A stretch of DNA of 43,281 bases. It comes from Fimbriimonadaceae bacterium. Its GTDB lineage: Bacteria; Armatimonadota; Fimbriimonadia; Fimbriimonadales; Fimbriimonadaceae. Positions 26,959 through 35,937 of the stretch are shown in pieces. Each line of letters opens with the position of its first letter. Within the stretch, counting starts at the first letter, position 1. The notes under the pieces are model-generated. The model saw only the letters and a list, made by a program, of their open reading frames with translations. It did no database searches and was not told the origin of the DNA. The stretch spans positions 1-43,281 of the forward strand of contig JALOLT010000006.1 of the NCBI GenBank assembly GCA_025455775.1, read 5' to 3'. The translations under genes and the position numbers were made by a program.

Positions 26959-29811
26959 ATGGCAGAAGGGAGCATCAAGCTTTGGCTCTTTTCAGCGGGC
27001 GGAATCGGCTGCACCCAGGCGATTCTGAAGGCTGTGCCACGAGACTGCTGGATTACGAGCTTCGACGATAGCCTCCTTCGACTCGCGGCTGATCTCCTCG
27101 GCAGAAATGAAGAGAGGGACTTCCTTCTTTTCGGCGAACTTGTGAGGCGAGTCCTTAGCATTCTGGGAGGGGAAGCCAAGATCCTCGCAAGCCGGGCCCT
27201 GATCCTGCCGATCCTAGAAGCAGACTTGCGAAAACAACTTCCGGGAAGCGTTTTCCACGATTCCGCCCAAATGCCTGGATGTGCCCCCTCGGTTTGGGAA
27301 GCTCTCCACGACCTCTCCCTTTATGGATGGACCTCCGATTCTCTACGCGAAGTGGCGGCTGAGCTGGGAGAAAAGCAGGAGGGATCCAAAACTGCCAATC
27401 AGTCTAAGTTCGTCGAGATGGCCTCGGCATGGGAATCGGTTGATTCGAAACTGGCAGAGGTAAACCGAGTCACCATCTTTGGCCTCGTCCAGCATCTCTT
27501 GCAACTGGAAGCCAATGATGTCCCGATCCCTCGGGACATCATTGTGCTCTATGGTTCTGAACACAAGCCCCTCTACGACGAAGTTTTGAAGTGGCTAAGC
27601 GCTCATGGATTTCGAGTGACAGTTCTCGTCGAAGCCTTTGAACCAAGCCACAATCTCTTTCCCCTCTCTCAACGCCTCACCGAATCGCTTAAACCGAAGG
27701 TGATTGTCCGCAAAGACAAGCCAAACTGGACAGCCAACCTCTTCACCCCCTTTCTCGCCGAAAAAGCGCGACCGGAGCTGGAAGTGTGGCGCGCCCCTGA
27801 TCCTCTTGCCGAGTGTGAATGGGTGCTGCGCGAGTGCATCCCCCTCGTGACCCAAGGAAAGAAGATCGGGATCTACTCGCGGAATGCTGCCACCTATGGC
27901 CCCCTCATCATAGCTACAGCGGAACGACTCGGTGTAGGGGTCAATGTTAGCCTGAACCAACCGCTTTTAACCAATGGGTTAGCTCGGGTCCTGAGCCAGA
28001 TTTTGCAGACTCTCTCGCAGCCAGATGTCCGCAAGCTGCGGAGGCTCGGAGGGAGCTCCTACCTTCGCTGCACCCCCAGCCAAAGAGATCTTCTGCAAGA
28101 GCTTGTCTATGGTGCCCACCGCGACAAAGGCGAGAGTTGGGAATCACTCCTCGCGCAAGTAGCAAACCATGAAAACTCAATTCCCTGGCTCCTCCCCTTA
28201 CTCACTTGGCGGCATGAATCAGCCTCAAACCCAGCCTCTGTCGGCGAATGGAGCACGCGATTGGAGCAACTCGTGGGGGACTGTTTCATCAACGACGCTT
28301 CGGTCGAAGGTGATGAGAAAACGATTCGCCGCGACCACAACGCCAAAACAGTCCTTCTCAGATCTATCCGAGGCCGATGCCTGGTAGACGCCTCAGAGAA
28401 ACTTTCCTTAAGCGAATTCACATCGACCGTTCAGGCCATCTGGCAAAATGAAACCTACACGGATCGATCTACTGCCCTGAATGGTATCCAATTCGTGACT
28501 GATACCTCCATGGCGTCGGACTTCGACTTTTTGGCGATTTTGGGATTGCTCGAAGGTGATTTCCCCCGAAGGAGGCGCGAGCACCCAATCCTCAGCGATT
28601 CAGATCTGGCAGAGCTCAATCAGTCGGGGCGAGTCTCACACAAACTTCCAAATTCTCATGATCGCGCTGCTACCGAGAGAGAGGAGTTTGTCAGACTTTG
28701 TGGTTCTGGACGAGAAAGGGTGCTTTTCTGCTACCCAGACAGCGACGATGACACAGACGCAGTACCAGCTTTCTATCTCCATGAAATAAAGCGAATCAGA
28801 GGATCAGAGTCGGAGCGATCCTTACAGAGATCAGCCATCGTTCCTCCGCCTGAACACTGCGTCTCACCGGCAGACCTTGACCTCGCCCAGGCCCTTGCCG
28901 AACCAAAACAATATCCCGACCCGATCGAAGTCTCCAACCAGGAAATCCAAGGGTTACTGATCCCTTCGGAGGATGGAGTCCAACCGGAAGAGCTTGCCGC
29001 AGCCTTGGTTTGTCCCTTCAGGGCCGCCTTCCGCTACCGCCTTGGCCTATCATCCCCATCCGATACTCTGGGCGACTTCATCTTTGTCGCAGGAATGAAG
29101 CAGATGCACGCCATCTCCAGTCAGCCGAACGCGAACGTTTCCATCTCAGTTGCCAAAGCACTCACCAAAAGGTTGGAAGAGTTCGAAGACAGGCTTCAGC
29201 CTTGGCAAGAACAACTCGCCAGGGCAACAATCGATAAATTCGCGGTGGATTGGCCAAACCGCGAACGAGAAACGCGGGAGCGAATCATTCCTCTTGACTT
29301 AGAGAATCTAGGCCCTGTCTCATTTCAACAAGGTCCACTGATTCCCCGCGTCAAATACGGTTCTAAAGAAGTTAAACTCCAAGGTGAGATTCCGAACTTC
29401 TCGTACGCAGAAAATCGATCGATTGCTGTCATCACAATCTTTCGCCGCAGCCTCGGCAAAGATTCGGTTGAGAAGGACGAGGAATTCGGCCACTTGGTGC
29501 GTTTTCTTGCCCTGTTCTCAGGCAAACGAAACTGTGTGATCGTGGCCGACGCCCCCAGAGGGCCACGCCTCGTCTACGGCTCTTACAAGAATCGAGCCAT
29601 CAAAGCAACCCTATTGGATCGGGCAGAGAGCGTCGATCTTTTGGCAAGGTCTGTCCGGCCAAAGATCCAGGATGCCCTCGACATTTTGCACAGAGGCACG
29701 GCAGTTCCAAAGCCAGGACTCCACTGCGAAAACTGTTCCCTGGGAGAACTCTGCCGCCGCCACTCTATCTTCGGCGAGACTGAATCACCCTTTGACCTCC
29801 CTTCATCATGA
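26959..29811 (+). CDS. AddB/RexB-like subunit with degenerate ATP-binding and nuclease motifs
   Basis: A 950-residue protein. Gene order, the UvrD-like architecture and a C-terminal PD-(D/E)XK-like region point to AddB, the partner of AddA in double-strand-break resection. The Fe-S staple is kept: C685 (VCPFRAAFRYRLGL), then C923-X2-C926-X5-C932. The Walker A position at residues 13-19 reads AGGIGCT, with Cys in place of Lys. In the nuclease region the usual GxxDR and DYK elements correspond to GEIPN and TIFRR, so the catalytic acids and lysine are missing. The stop overlaps the AddA-like start by 4 nt. Probably a structural or scanning subunit rather than a nuclease (inference). Confidence 0.75.
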   Translation: MAEGSIKLWLFSAGGIGCTQAILKAVPRDCWITSFDDSLLRLAADLLGRNEERDFLLFGELVRRVLSILGGEAKILASRALILPILEADLRKQLPGSVFHDSAQMPGCAPSVWEALHDLSLYGWTSDSLREVAAELGEKQEGSKTANQSKFVEMASAWESVDSKLAEVNRVTIFGLVQHLLQLEANDVPIPRDIIVLYGSEHKPLYDEVLKWLSAHGFRVTVLVEAFEPSHNLFPLSQRLTESLKPKVIVRKDKPNWTANLFTPFLAEKARPELEVWRAPDPLAECEWVLRECIPLVTQGKKIGIYSRNAATYGPLIIATAERLGVGVNVSLNQPLLTNGLARVLSQILQTLSQPDVRKLRRLGGSSYLRCTPSQRDLLQELVYGAHRDKGESWESLLAQVANHENSIPWLLPLLTWRHESASNPASVGEWSTRLEQLVGDCFINDASVEGDEKTIRRDHNAKTVLLRSIRGRCLVDASEKLSLSEFTSTVQAIWQNETYTDRSTALNGIQFVTDTSMASDFDFLAILGLLEGDFPRRRREHPILSDSDLAELNQSGRVSHKLPNSHDRAATEREEFVRLCGSGRERVLFCYPDSDDDTDAVPAFYLHEIKRIRGSESERSLQRSAIVPPPEHCVSPADLDLAQALAEPKQYPDPIEVSNQEIQGLLIPSEDGVQPEELAAALVCPFRAAFRYRLGLSSPSDTLGDFIFVAGMKQMHAISSQPNANVSISVAKALTKRLEEFEDRLQPWQEQLARATIDKFAVDWPNRERETRERIIPLDLENLGPVSFQQGPLIPRVKYGSKEVKLQGEIPNFSYAENRSIAVITIFRRSLGKDSVEKDEEFGHLVRFLALFSGKRNCVIVADAPRGPRLVYGSYKNRAIKATLLDRAESVDLLARSVRPKIQDALDILHRGTAVPKPGLHCENCSLGELCRRHSIFGETESPFDLPSS

Positions 29812-32141
29812 GCAAACTCACCGAAGAACAATTAGCAGTTGTCCATACCCAAGAGCCTCGGCTTACCATCCAAGCGGCGGCAGGCTCTGGCAAGACCCTC
29901 ACCCTTGTCCAGCGATACATCAAACTGGTGAACGACGGAGTTGCTCAACCAGACCAAATCCTCTGCATCACATTCACACGCAAGGCAGCAGCTGTGATGA
30001 AGGAGCGAATTGTCAGAGCCCTGAACGCTCAAGGAACCCCGCTACTGGCCCAAATCGCGGAAACTGGCCCGATCCAAACGATTCACGGATTCTGCGAAAG
30101 AGTACTGAGAGAAAACGCTCTAGCGGCAGGGGTCGATCCCAACTTTGAGGTTGCCGACACTGCCCAGCAAACAGAATTTAGGACACAGGCGACTCGCGAA
30201 GCCCTTACCCAGGCACCTTACCAAGAATCACCTGTGATGGACTATATCCGCATCAGATCTGGCTTCCGAAACTATCGCCAGGGAGCCAATTTTGAAGCAG
30301 GAATCCTCGATGACGTCGCCAAGATCCTTGAAATATGGCGTGGATCTGGCAACGACCGAGAGGTTCTTAACCAGATGGTTGAGAAGCCAGAACGACTCTT
30401 CGCCGCCTGGCGAACCGCCCTCTGTGACGAACTCTCGCCAGAGCAACTCTTCCACCTTCCCAACAAAGAGTTCCAGAGCGACTTCCTGAAACTCAAGTCC
30501 GATCTAGCAACCAACAGGATCCGGTTGCCGAAATGGCTCAAAAGCTATAAATTTGAACCTGACCTTGAGAGAGATGCTTCTCTCACCATGAGTGGTCTGG
30601 GGAGGCTAGCCATTTTGGCTTGGGAGTACCTAGAAGACGCAATGAAGCAGGCGCAGCAGTTTGACTTTACTTTGATGGAAGCCCTTGCCGTCGACCTGCT
30701 CAAATGCAACCCAAGTGTCGCGCAACGTGTCAGAGACCAATTCCTCGCCGTCTTGGTTGACGAAGCCCAAGACGTGAACCCTGTCCAGGATCAGTTGATC
30801 AAGTCGATTGGCGCAAAGAGCGAGCTTTTTGTCGGAGATCCCCAGCAATCCATCTTTGGATTCCGGATGGCAGACCGCCAACTCTTCATAGACCGCGGAG
30901 CGGAAACTGGCCTGATGCAGCTCAGCAAGAATTTTCGATCCGAGCCAGGAATCCTGGCATTTATCGACCACGTCTTCTCCCAGATCTGGCCGGACGAATA
31001 CAAGGCAGCCGCCATCCCTGCCCAGCTCACCACGTCAGATAGTGATGATCCCTTTGGTGCCCCAGAAAGTCCTTTCTTGGGAGTGGAAATCTGGCCTCCC
31101 ACGGGACACTGGTATCAAACCGCCGAACTTGTTAAGCAAATGGTTGAAGAGGCCGGAGGAGTGGGTGACATCGCAATCCTGCTACGAACTGCCAAGGATT
31201 TCGCGCCTCTGCAAGAGGAGCTGCAAAAAAAAGGGGTTCCTGCCGTGGTGGTGAGTGCTACGGATCGTTTCTACTCCCGAATGGAAACACGGGACGTTGC
31301 CAACGCCCTCACTGCGACAGTGGAGCCTACCAACGACTTTGCCCTTTTTTCCTTCTTGCACAGCCCCTTTGTCGGCCTCTCGACTGACGCGATCGTCTTT
31401 TTGGCTGCGCAACATTCTGCACAAGAAGCCCTGAATCAAATCCCCGACAGCCTGCCAGAAGACCAAGCAAAGGTGAGAGAACTCCTGCAGTGGTGGCCGG
31501 CTTTGGCCGACATCGGGGATCGAGTTCCCGCGTGGGAAATTCTGGCAGCCCTCTTTCGCAAGACGCCCTACTGGGAAAACCTCGCCCGCTCCCCCGGAGG
31601 AGAAGCGCGACTGGCCAACGTTCGAAAACTCTTCGTCCAATCCTGCGGCAACCCAAAAATGGACGCCCTTACCTTTGCTGATCATATCCGCCAAATCCAA
31701 TCCATCCGACACAAAGAAGGCGAGGCTCTCACTCATGACCGCGAACAAGAAGTGGTCAAACTCCTGACCATTCACTCGGCAAAAGGGCTCGAATTCGACA
31801 CTGTGATTCTCCCAAATTCGAATGAGAAACTCTCTTGGAAACCATCGCCTATTGAGGGTGACATCAAAACTGGCCTTTTCGGCTGCCGCCTCAGCGAGAA
31901 CCGCAAGCCCCTGATCTGGGAGTACCTGGTTCACCGGCGCAGGGAACGGGAAGTTGAAGAGTCGTTTCGGCTCCTTTACGTGGCCATGACCAGAGCCAAA
32001 AAGAAGCTCTGTGTCGCAGTTGCAGAGGCACCAGGAGATTCGACCAATGGCGAAGTACTCAGCCGGTGCCTTTCGTTTGGCCCTTCAGAGCCACGGGGCA
32101 TCGTCTTCCGAGGGCTAAAGGTAGACTCAGAAGAACAATGA
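29808..32141 (+). CDS. AddA/UvrD-type superfamily 1 helicase without nuclease domain
   Basis: 777 residues. All SF1A helicase motifs are present: Q motif LTEEQ, Walker A AAAGSGKT (23-30), motif Ia TFTRKAA, II VDEAQDVNPVQ, III GDPQQSIFGFR, IV NFRSEP, V IHSAKGLEFDTVIL and VI LYVAMTRAKKKL. The segment TIHGFCERVLRENALAAGVDP is typical of AddA/RecB rather than UvrD. AddA is normally about 1200 residues with a C-terminal RecB nuclease; this protein ends shortly after motif VI. It is translationally coupled to the AddB-like gene upstream and the nitrilase gene downstream. Confidence 0.85.
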   Translation: MSKLTEEQLAVVHTQEPRLTIQAAAGSGKTLTLVQRYIKLVNDGVAQPDQILCITFTRKAAAVMKERIVRALNAQGTPLLAQIAETGPIQTIHGFCERVLRENALAAGVDPNFEVADTAQQTEFRTQATREALTQAPYQESPVMDYIRIRSGFRNYRQGANFEAGILDDVAKILEIWRGSGNDREVLNQMVEKPERLFAAWRTALCDELSPEQLFHLPNKEFQSDFLKLKSDLATNRIRLPKWLKSYKFEPDLERDASLTMSGLGRLAILAWEYLEDAMKQAQQFDFTLMEALAVDLLKCNPSVAQRVRDQFLAVLVDEAQDVNPVQDQLIKSIGAKSELFVGDPQQSIFGFRMADRQLFIDRGAETGLMQLSKNFRSEPGILAFIDHVFSQIWPDEYKAAAIPAQLTTSDSDDPFGAPESPFLGVEIWPPTGHWYQTAELVKQMVEEAGGVGDIAILLRTAKDFAPLQEELQKKGVPAVVVSATDRFYSRMETRDVANALTATVEPTNDFALFSFLHSPFVGLSTDAIVFLAAQHSAQEALNQIPDSLPEDQAKVRELLQWWPALADIGDRVPAWEILAALFRKTPYWENLARSPGGEARLANVRKLFVQSCGNPKMDALTFADHIRQIQSIRHKEGEALTHDREQEVVKLLTIHSAKGLEFDTVILPNSNEKLSWKPSPIEGDIKTGLFGCRLSENRKPLIWEYLVHRRREREVEESFRLLYVAMTRAKKKLCVAVAEAPGDSTNGEVLSRCLSFGPSEPRGIVFRGLKVDSEEQ

Positions 32142-32998
32142 AGTTTACGGTTGCTTCAGCCCAGTTCACCCCGACCAAAGGTGCGGTTGAATCGAACCTT
32201 GATCGAATCGTAGATATCGCGACAGAAGCAAGTAAAGCAGGGGCGGATCTGGTAGTCTTCCCCGAAGCCTGCACCACAGGCTACATCTTAGAAGGAGGTG
32301 TGAACGACTGTGCGTTATGGCCCAACCAGTTGGTGGAATTCTTAGGCGCGAGAGCCAAAGTTTTCGACCGTCCGGTCGATCTAGCCCTCGGCTTTTACGA
32401 ACAAACTCTGGGTCAGCCATACAACAGTGCCGCCTATCTCTCCATCACAGATGGCGAAGTCCAGCTCCTGAATGTCTACCGAAAGGTGTTTCCTCCGACT
32501 TATCATGTCTTTGACGAGGAACGGTTCCACAGTGCCGGTAGCGATCTTGGCCTGGTGCAAACGAAGCTCGGCACCCTCGGTGTTCTGATTTGTGAAGACG
32601 TCTGGCACTCGATTCTTGGGAGCCTCCTCGCGATCGCCGGAGCGGAAATGATCTTGGTTCACTCTGCCAGTCCAGGAAGAGGGTTTGCTGATGCAAAACC
32701 TCAAAACCTCCTTCGCTACGAGAGAATGCTTCAATCCATGAGTGAAGAGCACGGACTCTATGCCGTTATTTCGATGCTCACTGGATTCGAGGGCGGGAAA
32801 GGAATGACAGGCGGGTCAATGATCTTTGACCCAAGCGGTGATTTGATGTGCCAAGCCCCTCTCATGGAAGAAGCCCTCGTGATGGCGGACATTGATCTCG
32901 ATCAGGTGAGGATCGCTCGACAAAGATCTCCCCTCCTGAGTGACCTGAGAGGCAAGTGGGCAGAAATCATCCGAATGGTTGAAAAAACCAAATGGTGA
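32138..32998 (+). CDS. carbon-nitrogen hydrolase (nitrilase superfamily)
   Basis: 286 residues from the ATG at 32138, which overlaps the AddA-like stop (ATGA). Catalytic triad E43 (FPEA), K116 (YRKVFPP) and C152 (LICEDVWHS). The CEDVWH setting resembles the glutaminase domain of NAD synthetases and stand-alone amidases of that branch. Hydrolyses an amide or nitrile; the substrate is unknown. No synthetase domain is fused. Its place behind the helicase pair suggests co-transcription, not necessarily a shared pathway. Converges on mnmG with a 27-nt gap. Confidence 0.85.
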   Translation: MKFTVASAQFTPTKGAVESNLDRIVDIATEASKAGADLVVFPEACTTGYILEGGVNDCALWPNQLVEFLGARAKVFDRPVDLALGFYEQTLGQPYNSAAYLSITDGEVQLLNVYRKVFPPTYHVFDEERFHSAGSDLGLVQTKLGTLGVLICEDVWHSILGSLLAIAGAEMILVHSASPGRGFADAKPQNLLRYERMLQSMSEEHGLYAVISMLTGFEGGKGMTGGSMIFDPSGDLMCQAPLMEEALVMADIDLDQVRIARQRSPLLSDLRGKWAEIIRMVEKTKW

Positions 32999-34958: not shown

Positions 34959-35009
34959 CTCTTGAGTGATCCAGATGCCAAAGAATCGGTCTCGCCTGAC
35001 GAGCCTGAC

Positions 35010-35085
35010 AGGGCCGACGGCCCAAAATTCCCTGAACCTAAGATCCCTAAAGGCAACAAAATACTTTTTGCAATATAATTGCAAT
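35010..35085 (+). promoter_or_regulatory. prepilin control module, copy 1
   Basis: It begins with AGGGCCGACGGCCCAAA (35010-35026), which contains the 5-bp inverted repeat GGGCC-GAC-GGCCC. It ends with TTGCAATATAATTGCAA (35068-35084), a perfect 7-bp inverted repeat with a 3-nt centre that includes TATAAT at 35074-35079. Exactly 6 nt separate TATAAT from the ATG at 35086. Copy 2 has the same parts at the same spacing within 1 nt. The dyad over the -10 box looks like a repressor operator, and the upstream box like an activator site (inference). Confidence 0.75.
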
Positions 35086-35937
35086 ATGGCTAGTGCCACA
35101 ACCAAAAAGACCGCCTTTACTTTGATTGAGCTGCTTGTTGTGATCGCGATCATCGCGATTCTCGCGGCTATCCTATTTCCCGTCTTTGCCCAGGCCAAAG
35201 CTGCTTCTCAGAAGACAGTTGCCCTTTCCAACAAGAAACAGATTGGTCTTGCTGGAATGCTCTACATGGCTGACTTCGATGACACCATGTTCCTTCACAA
35301 CTACTACCAGGACAACAACACTCGTTGGCATCTGTGGTTCTATGGCTTCGATATGGTGCTGAACCGAGGGCGGGCGGACTACGGGCTTCTCTGGCCCTAT
35401 CAAAAAAATGTTGAGCTTCAAGATGACCCTATGGCACGGAGTATCCGCACCAATGCCACTTGGGCCAATCCAACCTTTTGGCCAGCCTACGGGATCAACG
35501 CTGCCTACCTCCTCAATGGCCTGTCTCCGAGTGCTACCGTACCCTTGATCCCTGCCGTCATGACTTCGGTGGAGCGACCAGCAGAAACAATCCTCCTCAC
35601 AGACGTGGCAGGCTTTAACGCAACCACGGGAGCATTTTTCCGAGTCAATACTGTGACTCCCCCTTCCGGGATCGATCGCGGGGTTCAGGGTGGCTCTTTC
35701 GCAAGCCAATTTGGAAACACCCACTTCCGCCACAGTGGGGAGACAGTCACAGTGCTCTGGGTGGATGGCCACGTCTCAACCATGAAGCCAACTTATAAGC
35801 AAGGGGCAGCCCATGCATCGCGCCGCAACGCGAAGATTGGACACCTTTCTCGGGGCCCCATCCCAGACACCATTCCGGTCGGAGATCCGAACACTCTGCG
35901 ATATGACTATTACTTTGCCTTGCAGAAGGTGGATTAA
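35086..35937 (+). CDS. prepilin-type N-terminal cleavage/methylation domain protein (pseudopilin)
   Basis: 283 residues from the ATG at 35086; an upstream in-frame ATG would run through the promoter. Leader [10 protein letters not shown], then AFTLIELL with cleavage before Phe, E at +5 of the mature chain and one long hydrophobic helix followed by LFPVFAQAK. The body has the [17 protein letters not shown] segment and near the C-terminus H-X10-DG ([13 protein letters not shown]), typical of the large prepilin-like families of Armatimonadota and Planctomycetes. Probably processed by a PilD peptidase and assembled or surface-displayed. The next gene starts at the base after its stop. Confidence 0.92.

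Follow-up and report, generated by a model that had tools for sequence, protein, structure and literature searches.

The addBA locus of a Fimbriimonadaceae bacterium

The window analysed here is a 43,281-nucleotide stretch of DNA from a Fimbriimonadaceae bacterium of the phylum Armatimonadota (assembly GCA_025455775.1, contig JALOLT010000006.1, which is contig C148 of our host genome, G000; 2.99 Mb, 98% complete). It carries two overlapping genes, addB-like and addA-like, whose products resemble the two subunits of the helicase-nuclease AddAB (Table 1). By sequence, the pair is homologous to AddAB and is not a helicase-nuclease, because AddA lacks the nuclease domain and AddB lacks the catalytic positions. 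An earlier note on this DNA had proposed a non-cutting helicase with a structural iron-sulfur (Fe-S) partner, or a complex that recruits a separate nuclease, and the sequence and fold evidence supports this proposal. Fimbriimonadaceae and a sister family appear to have kept AddAB as a motor after losing both cutting sites, and another enzyme probably cuts instead.

AddA keeps the motor and has lost the nuclease domain

The AddA-like protein matches the Pfam families UvrD-helicase (1.4e-51) and UvrD_C (1.7e-31) and, partially, the family TIGR02785 addA (9.8e-73). All seven motifs of superfamily 1A (SF1A) helicases were found, starting at residues 23 (I), 55 (Ia), 318 (II), 343 (III), 372 (IV), 654 (V) and 722 (VI), and they are intact and largely invariant across Fimbriimonadaceae. 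The earlier note had described a protein with every helicase motif that ends at 777 residues without the RecB nuclease, and the orthologues are alike in this respect. The C-terminus lies shortly past motif VI in 46 of the 47 aligned orthologues of the order, the 47th being cut by a contig end, and no nuclease follows motif VI in any of the order's five families (f1 to f5). Because the same end point recurs across the whole order, a frameshift or assembly truncation was rejected. In most other Armatimonadota families AddA carries a tail of ~290-400 residues, in which a DYK-type motif is usual; the tail is also missing in four families outside the order (f6, f8, f11 and f24).

AddB has a predicted nuclease fold without the catalytic set

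AddB is weak by sequence profile (ADDB_N, E 0.03; PDDEXK_1, E 4e-4; neither reaches its cut-off), and a profile match to 3u44_B was obtained at E 4.9e-14. An AlphaFold2 model built from the window protein and eight relatives, with a mean predicted local distance difference test score (pLDDT) of 77, aligned over 882 residues with Bacillus subtilis AddB (3u4q_B, Z 27.8) in a fold search; UvrD (Z 20.7) and RecC (Z 19.3) followed at lower scores. This is the structural comparison that the earlier note had suggested, and by alignment the active site lacks an Asp/Asp/Lys set. To judge from its sequence, the N-terminal part is a dead helicase-like domain. Its Walker A motif does have cysteine for lysine, as had been noticed, and is degenerate in the Fimbriimonadaceae relatives too.

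When the last 290 residues of AddB were modelled alone (pLDDT 75, predicted template modelling score 0.74), the best fold match was the nuclease domain of AdnA (Z 14.2), followed by those of AddB (Z 12.4), Cas4 (Z 11.6) and Dna2 (Z 11.1). Based on these matches, the modelled C-domain is an iron-staple PD-(D/E)XK fold. To follow its residues through the order we aligned 35 AddBs from the host family Fimbriimonadaceae (f1), 7 from the sister family (f5) and 13 from the remaining families f2, f3 and f4; the relatives are sampled genomes, many of them draft. The four cysteines stand at the positions first given for them and are present in 41 of 42 AddBs of the affected families f1 and f5 and in 13 of 13 elsewhere in the order, and their columns are in the top eight of the protein for conservation. 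The cysteine pattern thus indicates a four-Cys Fe-S staple, with the cluster itself predicted.

The loss of catalytic residues, which the earlier note had remarked on for the Asp and Lys, extends to the two families as a whole. The region that should hold GxxDRxD and xxDYK reads GEIPNFS...AVITIFRR, and the window protein has none of the four catalytic residues (His/Asp/Asp/Lys) at the aligned columns. At most one of the four is retained by any AddB of f1 or f5 (0/42 keep two or more), whereas every AddB from f2, f3 and f4 keeps all of them, i.e., the catalytic His, GxxD and xxDxK (13/13), a difference that argues against chance or misalignment. The first catalytic Asp is still kept in the f5 proteins. 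The alignment is gappy at the core, where the window protein and its relatives share ~22-33% identity, and single catalytic columns may shift by 1-2 positions; the four-position census and a motif scan are less sensitive to such shifts. The possibility that misalignment hides the site was checked by this alignment-free scan and by the fold search of the C-domain alone. Across the 42 affected AddBs, xx[DE]hK strings were found in two, LAEVK in G009 and FVDVK in G040, and at the aligned columns each of these proteins keeps at most one of the four catalytic positions.

Within f1, the core of AddB (residues 781-880) has a mean identity of 17%, compared with 23-35% in the helicase-like parts, and is among the least conserved regions; in the live family f2 the corresponding values are 46% and 39-53%. 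The ratio of nonsynonymous to synonymous substitution rates (dN/dS) is 0.043 in the dead C-domain and 0.043 in the helicase-like part, values that come from one close pair, a second pair (G007/G036) being near saturation at synonymous sites. In the pair tested, purifying selection thus acts on the dead domain, and all 50 high-quality genomes of the order have an AddB. Given the conserved cysteines and the low dN/dS, the sequences indicate that the C-domain is kept for something other than catalysis.

Table 1 Genes and features of the addBA locus, with positions in the window.
Feature	Position	Strand	Basis or remark
addB-like gene, 950 residues	26959..29811	+	Open reading frame
AddB degenerate Walker A, AGGIGCT, residues 13-19; Lys position is C18	26995..27015	+	Sequence
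AddB nuclease-like C-domain, residues 661-936	28939..29766	+	AlphaFold2 model of the stretch alone and fold matches
AddB C685, first predicted Fe-S staple cysteine	29011..29013	+	Alignment
AddB E769	29263-29265		Conserved in 41/42 dead and 13/13 live AddBs; outside the catalytic residues checked
AddB P812, at the first catalytic Asp (GxxD to GEIP)	29392..29394	+	Alignment
AddB residues 824-829, VITIFR, at the xxDYK motif; no Asp/Glu, no Lys	29428..29445	+	Alignment
AddB C923, C926 and C932 (CxxCx5C), remaining predicted staple cysteines	29725..29754	+	Alignment
addA-like gene, 777 residues	29808..32141	+	Open reading frame; 5' end overlaps addB by ATGA
AddA Walker A, AAAGSGKT, residues 23-30	29874..29897	+	Sequence, alignment
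AddA motif II, DEAQD	30759..30773	+	Sequence, alignment
AddA motif VI, LLYVAMTRAK; C-terminus ~46 residues on	31971..32000	+	Sequence, alignment
Carbon-nitrogen hydrolase gene	32138..32998	+	PF00795, 2.1e-29; overlaps the addA stop by ATGA

A probable two-step loss in Armatimonadota

The affected state was sampled in 38 genera. In a FastTree phylogeny of the helicase part, the AddAs of f1 and f5 form one clade (support 0.975), and therefore a single loss of the AddB site suffices. The tail-less AddAs of the order and of f6, f8, f11 and f24 also form one clade, with weak support (0.53). AddB is live by motif in f6, f8, f24 and most of f11, despite the tail-less AddA in these families. The simplest history suggested by these sequences would be a loss in two steps, with the AddA nuclease disappearing first in the wider clade and the AddB site later, in the ancestor of f1 and f5.

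A survey of the phylum, which the earlier note had recommended, found that two families have the AddB loss in common and that most others do not show it; the AddB motif is missing from f22 and from one f11 genome as well. Family f22 has the reverse arrangement (L243:2088-8270), in which AddB is without a DxK motif and the adjacent AddA keeps IVDFK, as in RecBC. In the f11 genome, G079, AddB (L278) has MDYTT in place of DYK and is without the QxxxY motif, and AddA (L241:3935-6823) is without a nuclease; to judge from these motifs, both nucleases seem to have been lost independently in this lineage. Outside Armatimonadota, a nuclease-less AddA accompanied by an AddB with an intact motif was observed in Proteobacteria bacterium BJ13 (L187:2212-7403) and in Methanospirillaceae (L152:451-6653).

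Candidate cutting enzymes in the host genome

The earlier note had also pointed to a stand-alone RecB-type nuclease, RecJ or a second AddAB as things to look for elsewhere in the genome. The first two were found. No second AddA, AddB or RecB was found in the host genome by family-by-family profile searches, the other AddA match being a UvrD/PcrA-type helicase of 740 residues. RecJ is present in the host genome (E 2.7e-153, genome-search E-values being per genome), and all 50 high-quality genomes of the set have it. RecO was found in the host genome and in 48 of the 50, and RecF was found in the host genome. RecQ exceeds the family cut-off in 25 of 61 genomes of the order and does not do so in the host genome; as many of the genomes are drafts, its absence from a single one is weak evidence.

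The stand-alone nuclease is a Cas4-like PD-(D/E)XK protein of 276 residues (L001:1408-2238, minus strand), the sole PF12705 protein above the cut-off in the host genome. It keeps GRVDRVD, IVDYK and four cysteines, and its gene lies beside an SMC-like gene, away from addBA. Practically all 61 genomes of the order encode a protein of this kind. We therefore rejected the idea that a replacement nuclease was gained along with the loss: the gene is equally present in the relatives with an intact AddB, so the expected correlation fails and the enzyme is not a specific replacement.

No nuclease gene is kept beside addBA. The sole neighbour conserved in about two-thirds of the loci is the carbon-nitrogen hydrolase gene, which adjoins addBA in 12 of 19 loci of Fimbriimonadaceae and is likely the third gene of the operon, with no evident part in the mechanism. 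Farther downstream, the open reading frame at 34966-35937 encodes an N-terminal stretch that resembles a prepilin, as is typical for type II pseudopilins.

A proposed model of resection by an apparently nuclease-free AddAB

The B. subtilis enzyme divides the cutting between its subunits, AddA acting on the 3' strand and AddB on the 5' strand; beyond Chi, cutting is confined to the 5' strand (PMC4824097). If these roles hold, a machine that had lost just the AddA nuclease would have cut the 5' strand only, in effect a permanent post-Chi mode, and the later loss of the AddB site would have handed the 5' strand to an exonuclease acting in trans. Since it is AddB that cuts the 5' strand, the activity now missing would be a 5'-to-3' exonuclease.

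By sequence, the pair descends from AddAB. We think it probable, on the whole, that it forms a nuclease-free machine that binds and unwinds ends, with the strand cut in trans by RecJ or the four-Cys exonuclease and RecA loaded by RecFOR. The catalytically dead domain of AddB, with its predicted Fe-S staple, would help to bind broken DNA ends. The Fe-S cluster is reportedly essential for binding broken DNA, as the title of Yeeles 2009 has it, which would explain why the cysteines were retained. AddA, presumably the only ATP motor, would move 3' to 5' and unwind the DNA from the break; the 5' strand would be removed in trans, most likely by RecJ or else by the separate four-Cys RecB-type exonuclease, and RecFOR would load RecA onto the 3' strand. 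A precedent exists in Escherichia coli RecB1080CD, which neither cuts nor loads RecA and for which RecJ and RecFOR supply these functions (PMC3375238).

Several observations weigh against this model. Relatives with a live AddB have RecJ and RecO to an equal extent, so that the presence of these two proteins does not mark them out, and the stand-alone nuclease, too, is found throughout the order. Cells carrying recB1080 repair worse than the wild type (PMC3375238), a cost for which the model offers no explanation. AddB could have a distant or unusual active site that its sequence does not reveal, and E769 is almost invariant. Finally, the support within the Armatimonadota group comes wholly from sequences and models.

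A more specific version, which we put forward tentatively and with some doubt, likens the process to eukaryotic resection: the nuclease-free AddAB would be an end-binding motor, and a dedicated nuclease, RecJ or the four-Cys protein, would dock at the place where the 5' strand is offered by the dead domain of AddB. If so, any Chi would act on the motor or on the loading of RecA instead of on cutting; we found no Chi sequence for the Fimbriimonadaceae group in the literature.

The stand-alone four-Cys protein might go further and serve as a third subunit that docks on AddAB in place of the lost domain. Its intact active-site motifs and cysteines, its Cas4-like character and its being the only other PF12705 protein in the genome speak for this, as does the finding that Sulfolobus Cas4 is a 5'-to-3' exonuclease, the polarity needed (PMC3466216). 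Docking is, however, purely conjectural, and a gene that is not adjacent to addBA, present in families with a live AddB and not gained with the loss makes such a subunit unlikely. It is less probable still that the complex no longer resects at all and has become a pure translocase or end-protection machine, e.g., for fork restart or protein clearing, leaving breaks to other enzymes. Such a role would fit the loss of the two nuclease sites beside an intact motor, as it would the independent presence of RecJ; however, RecQ, the usual alternative resection helicase, has no match above the cut-off in the host genome and many relatives, so that AddA is the obvious helicase left for resection.

That AddB still cuts, through a rearranged active site invisible to alignment, seems very improbable to us. 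The fold is preserved, E769 is conserved in all but one of the affected proteins, and PD-(D/E)xK proteins with relocated sites, such as EndA, exist (PMC1185551). However, E769 is equally conserved in live AddBs and is therefore not a replacement residue, and the affected families show no new conserved Asp/Glu/Lys column in a core that is among the most variable regions. The fast divergence of that core might instead mean that addBA is decaying and that the pair is heading for loss, a reading to which we give almost no weight: the Fe-S cysteines and AddA motifs are kept, and decay is already disfavoured by the purifying selection seen in the close pair and by the retention of AddB across the families.

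Relation to known systems

The closest comparison is B. subtilis AddAB (3u4q, 4cej), with which the pair shares an SF1A motor in AddA, a full-length AddB fold, the Fe-S cysteines and adjacent genes. The B. subtilis enzyme has an active nuclease in each subunit, whereas by sequence the present pair has none and AddA is without its whole C-terminal domain. RecBCD has an active nuclease in its RecB-like subunit, which AddA does not. Membership in the Gabija system (GajAB) was rejected, as AddA matches GajB profiles merely as a general UvrD helicase and AddB has no PADLOC match. To our knowledge, RecC carries no Fe-S staple. In E. coli RecC, as here in AddB, a scaffold subunit contains inactivated helicase-like and nuclease-like domains (PMC1185551), but its partner RecB keeps an active nuclease and the AddA partner has none. 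The nuclease-dead RecB1080CD likewise binds breaks as a helicase and would share the helpers RecJ and RecFOR with the proposed model, but it is a laboratory point mutant of reduced fitness that has the RecD motor, whereas here the state is natural and the AddA domain itself is gone.

Both subunits of mycobacterial AdnAB carry a nuclease, and the mutations D934A and D1014A inactivate these. The window pair, whose C-domain is closest in fold to AdnA (6ppr, 7sjr), does not have nuclease domains in both subunits. The proposed separation of helicase and 5' nuclease onto different proteins resembles eukaryotic resection by Sgs1/Dna2 and BLM/EXO1; the likeness is one of working principle only, the helicases there being of the unrelated RecQ family. 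In some strains of Wolbachia the AddA nuclease has been lost through a premature stop (PMC4224334). We found no account in the literature of a family-wide AddAB without any nuclease, though Cromie 2009 may hold an earlier mention, and no paper on AddAB in Armatimonadetes; AddA is not mentioned in the main text of the Fimbriimonas ginsengisoli genome paper.

AddAB and RecBCD are the textbook fusions of helicase and nuclease, and the removal of cutting in two steps separates the roles of their parts. Armatimonadota offers all four states for comparison: both nucleases, AddA only, AddB only and none. A nuclease-free motor would also be available for single-molecule work without engineered mutations. 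For the families concerned, the Fe-S domain appears to be worth keeping without catalysis, which fits a part in end binding, and their cells may show, as a natural experiment, which enzyme takes over resection from an AddAB unable to cut and whether control by Chi needs a nuclease within the complex.
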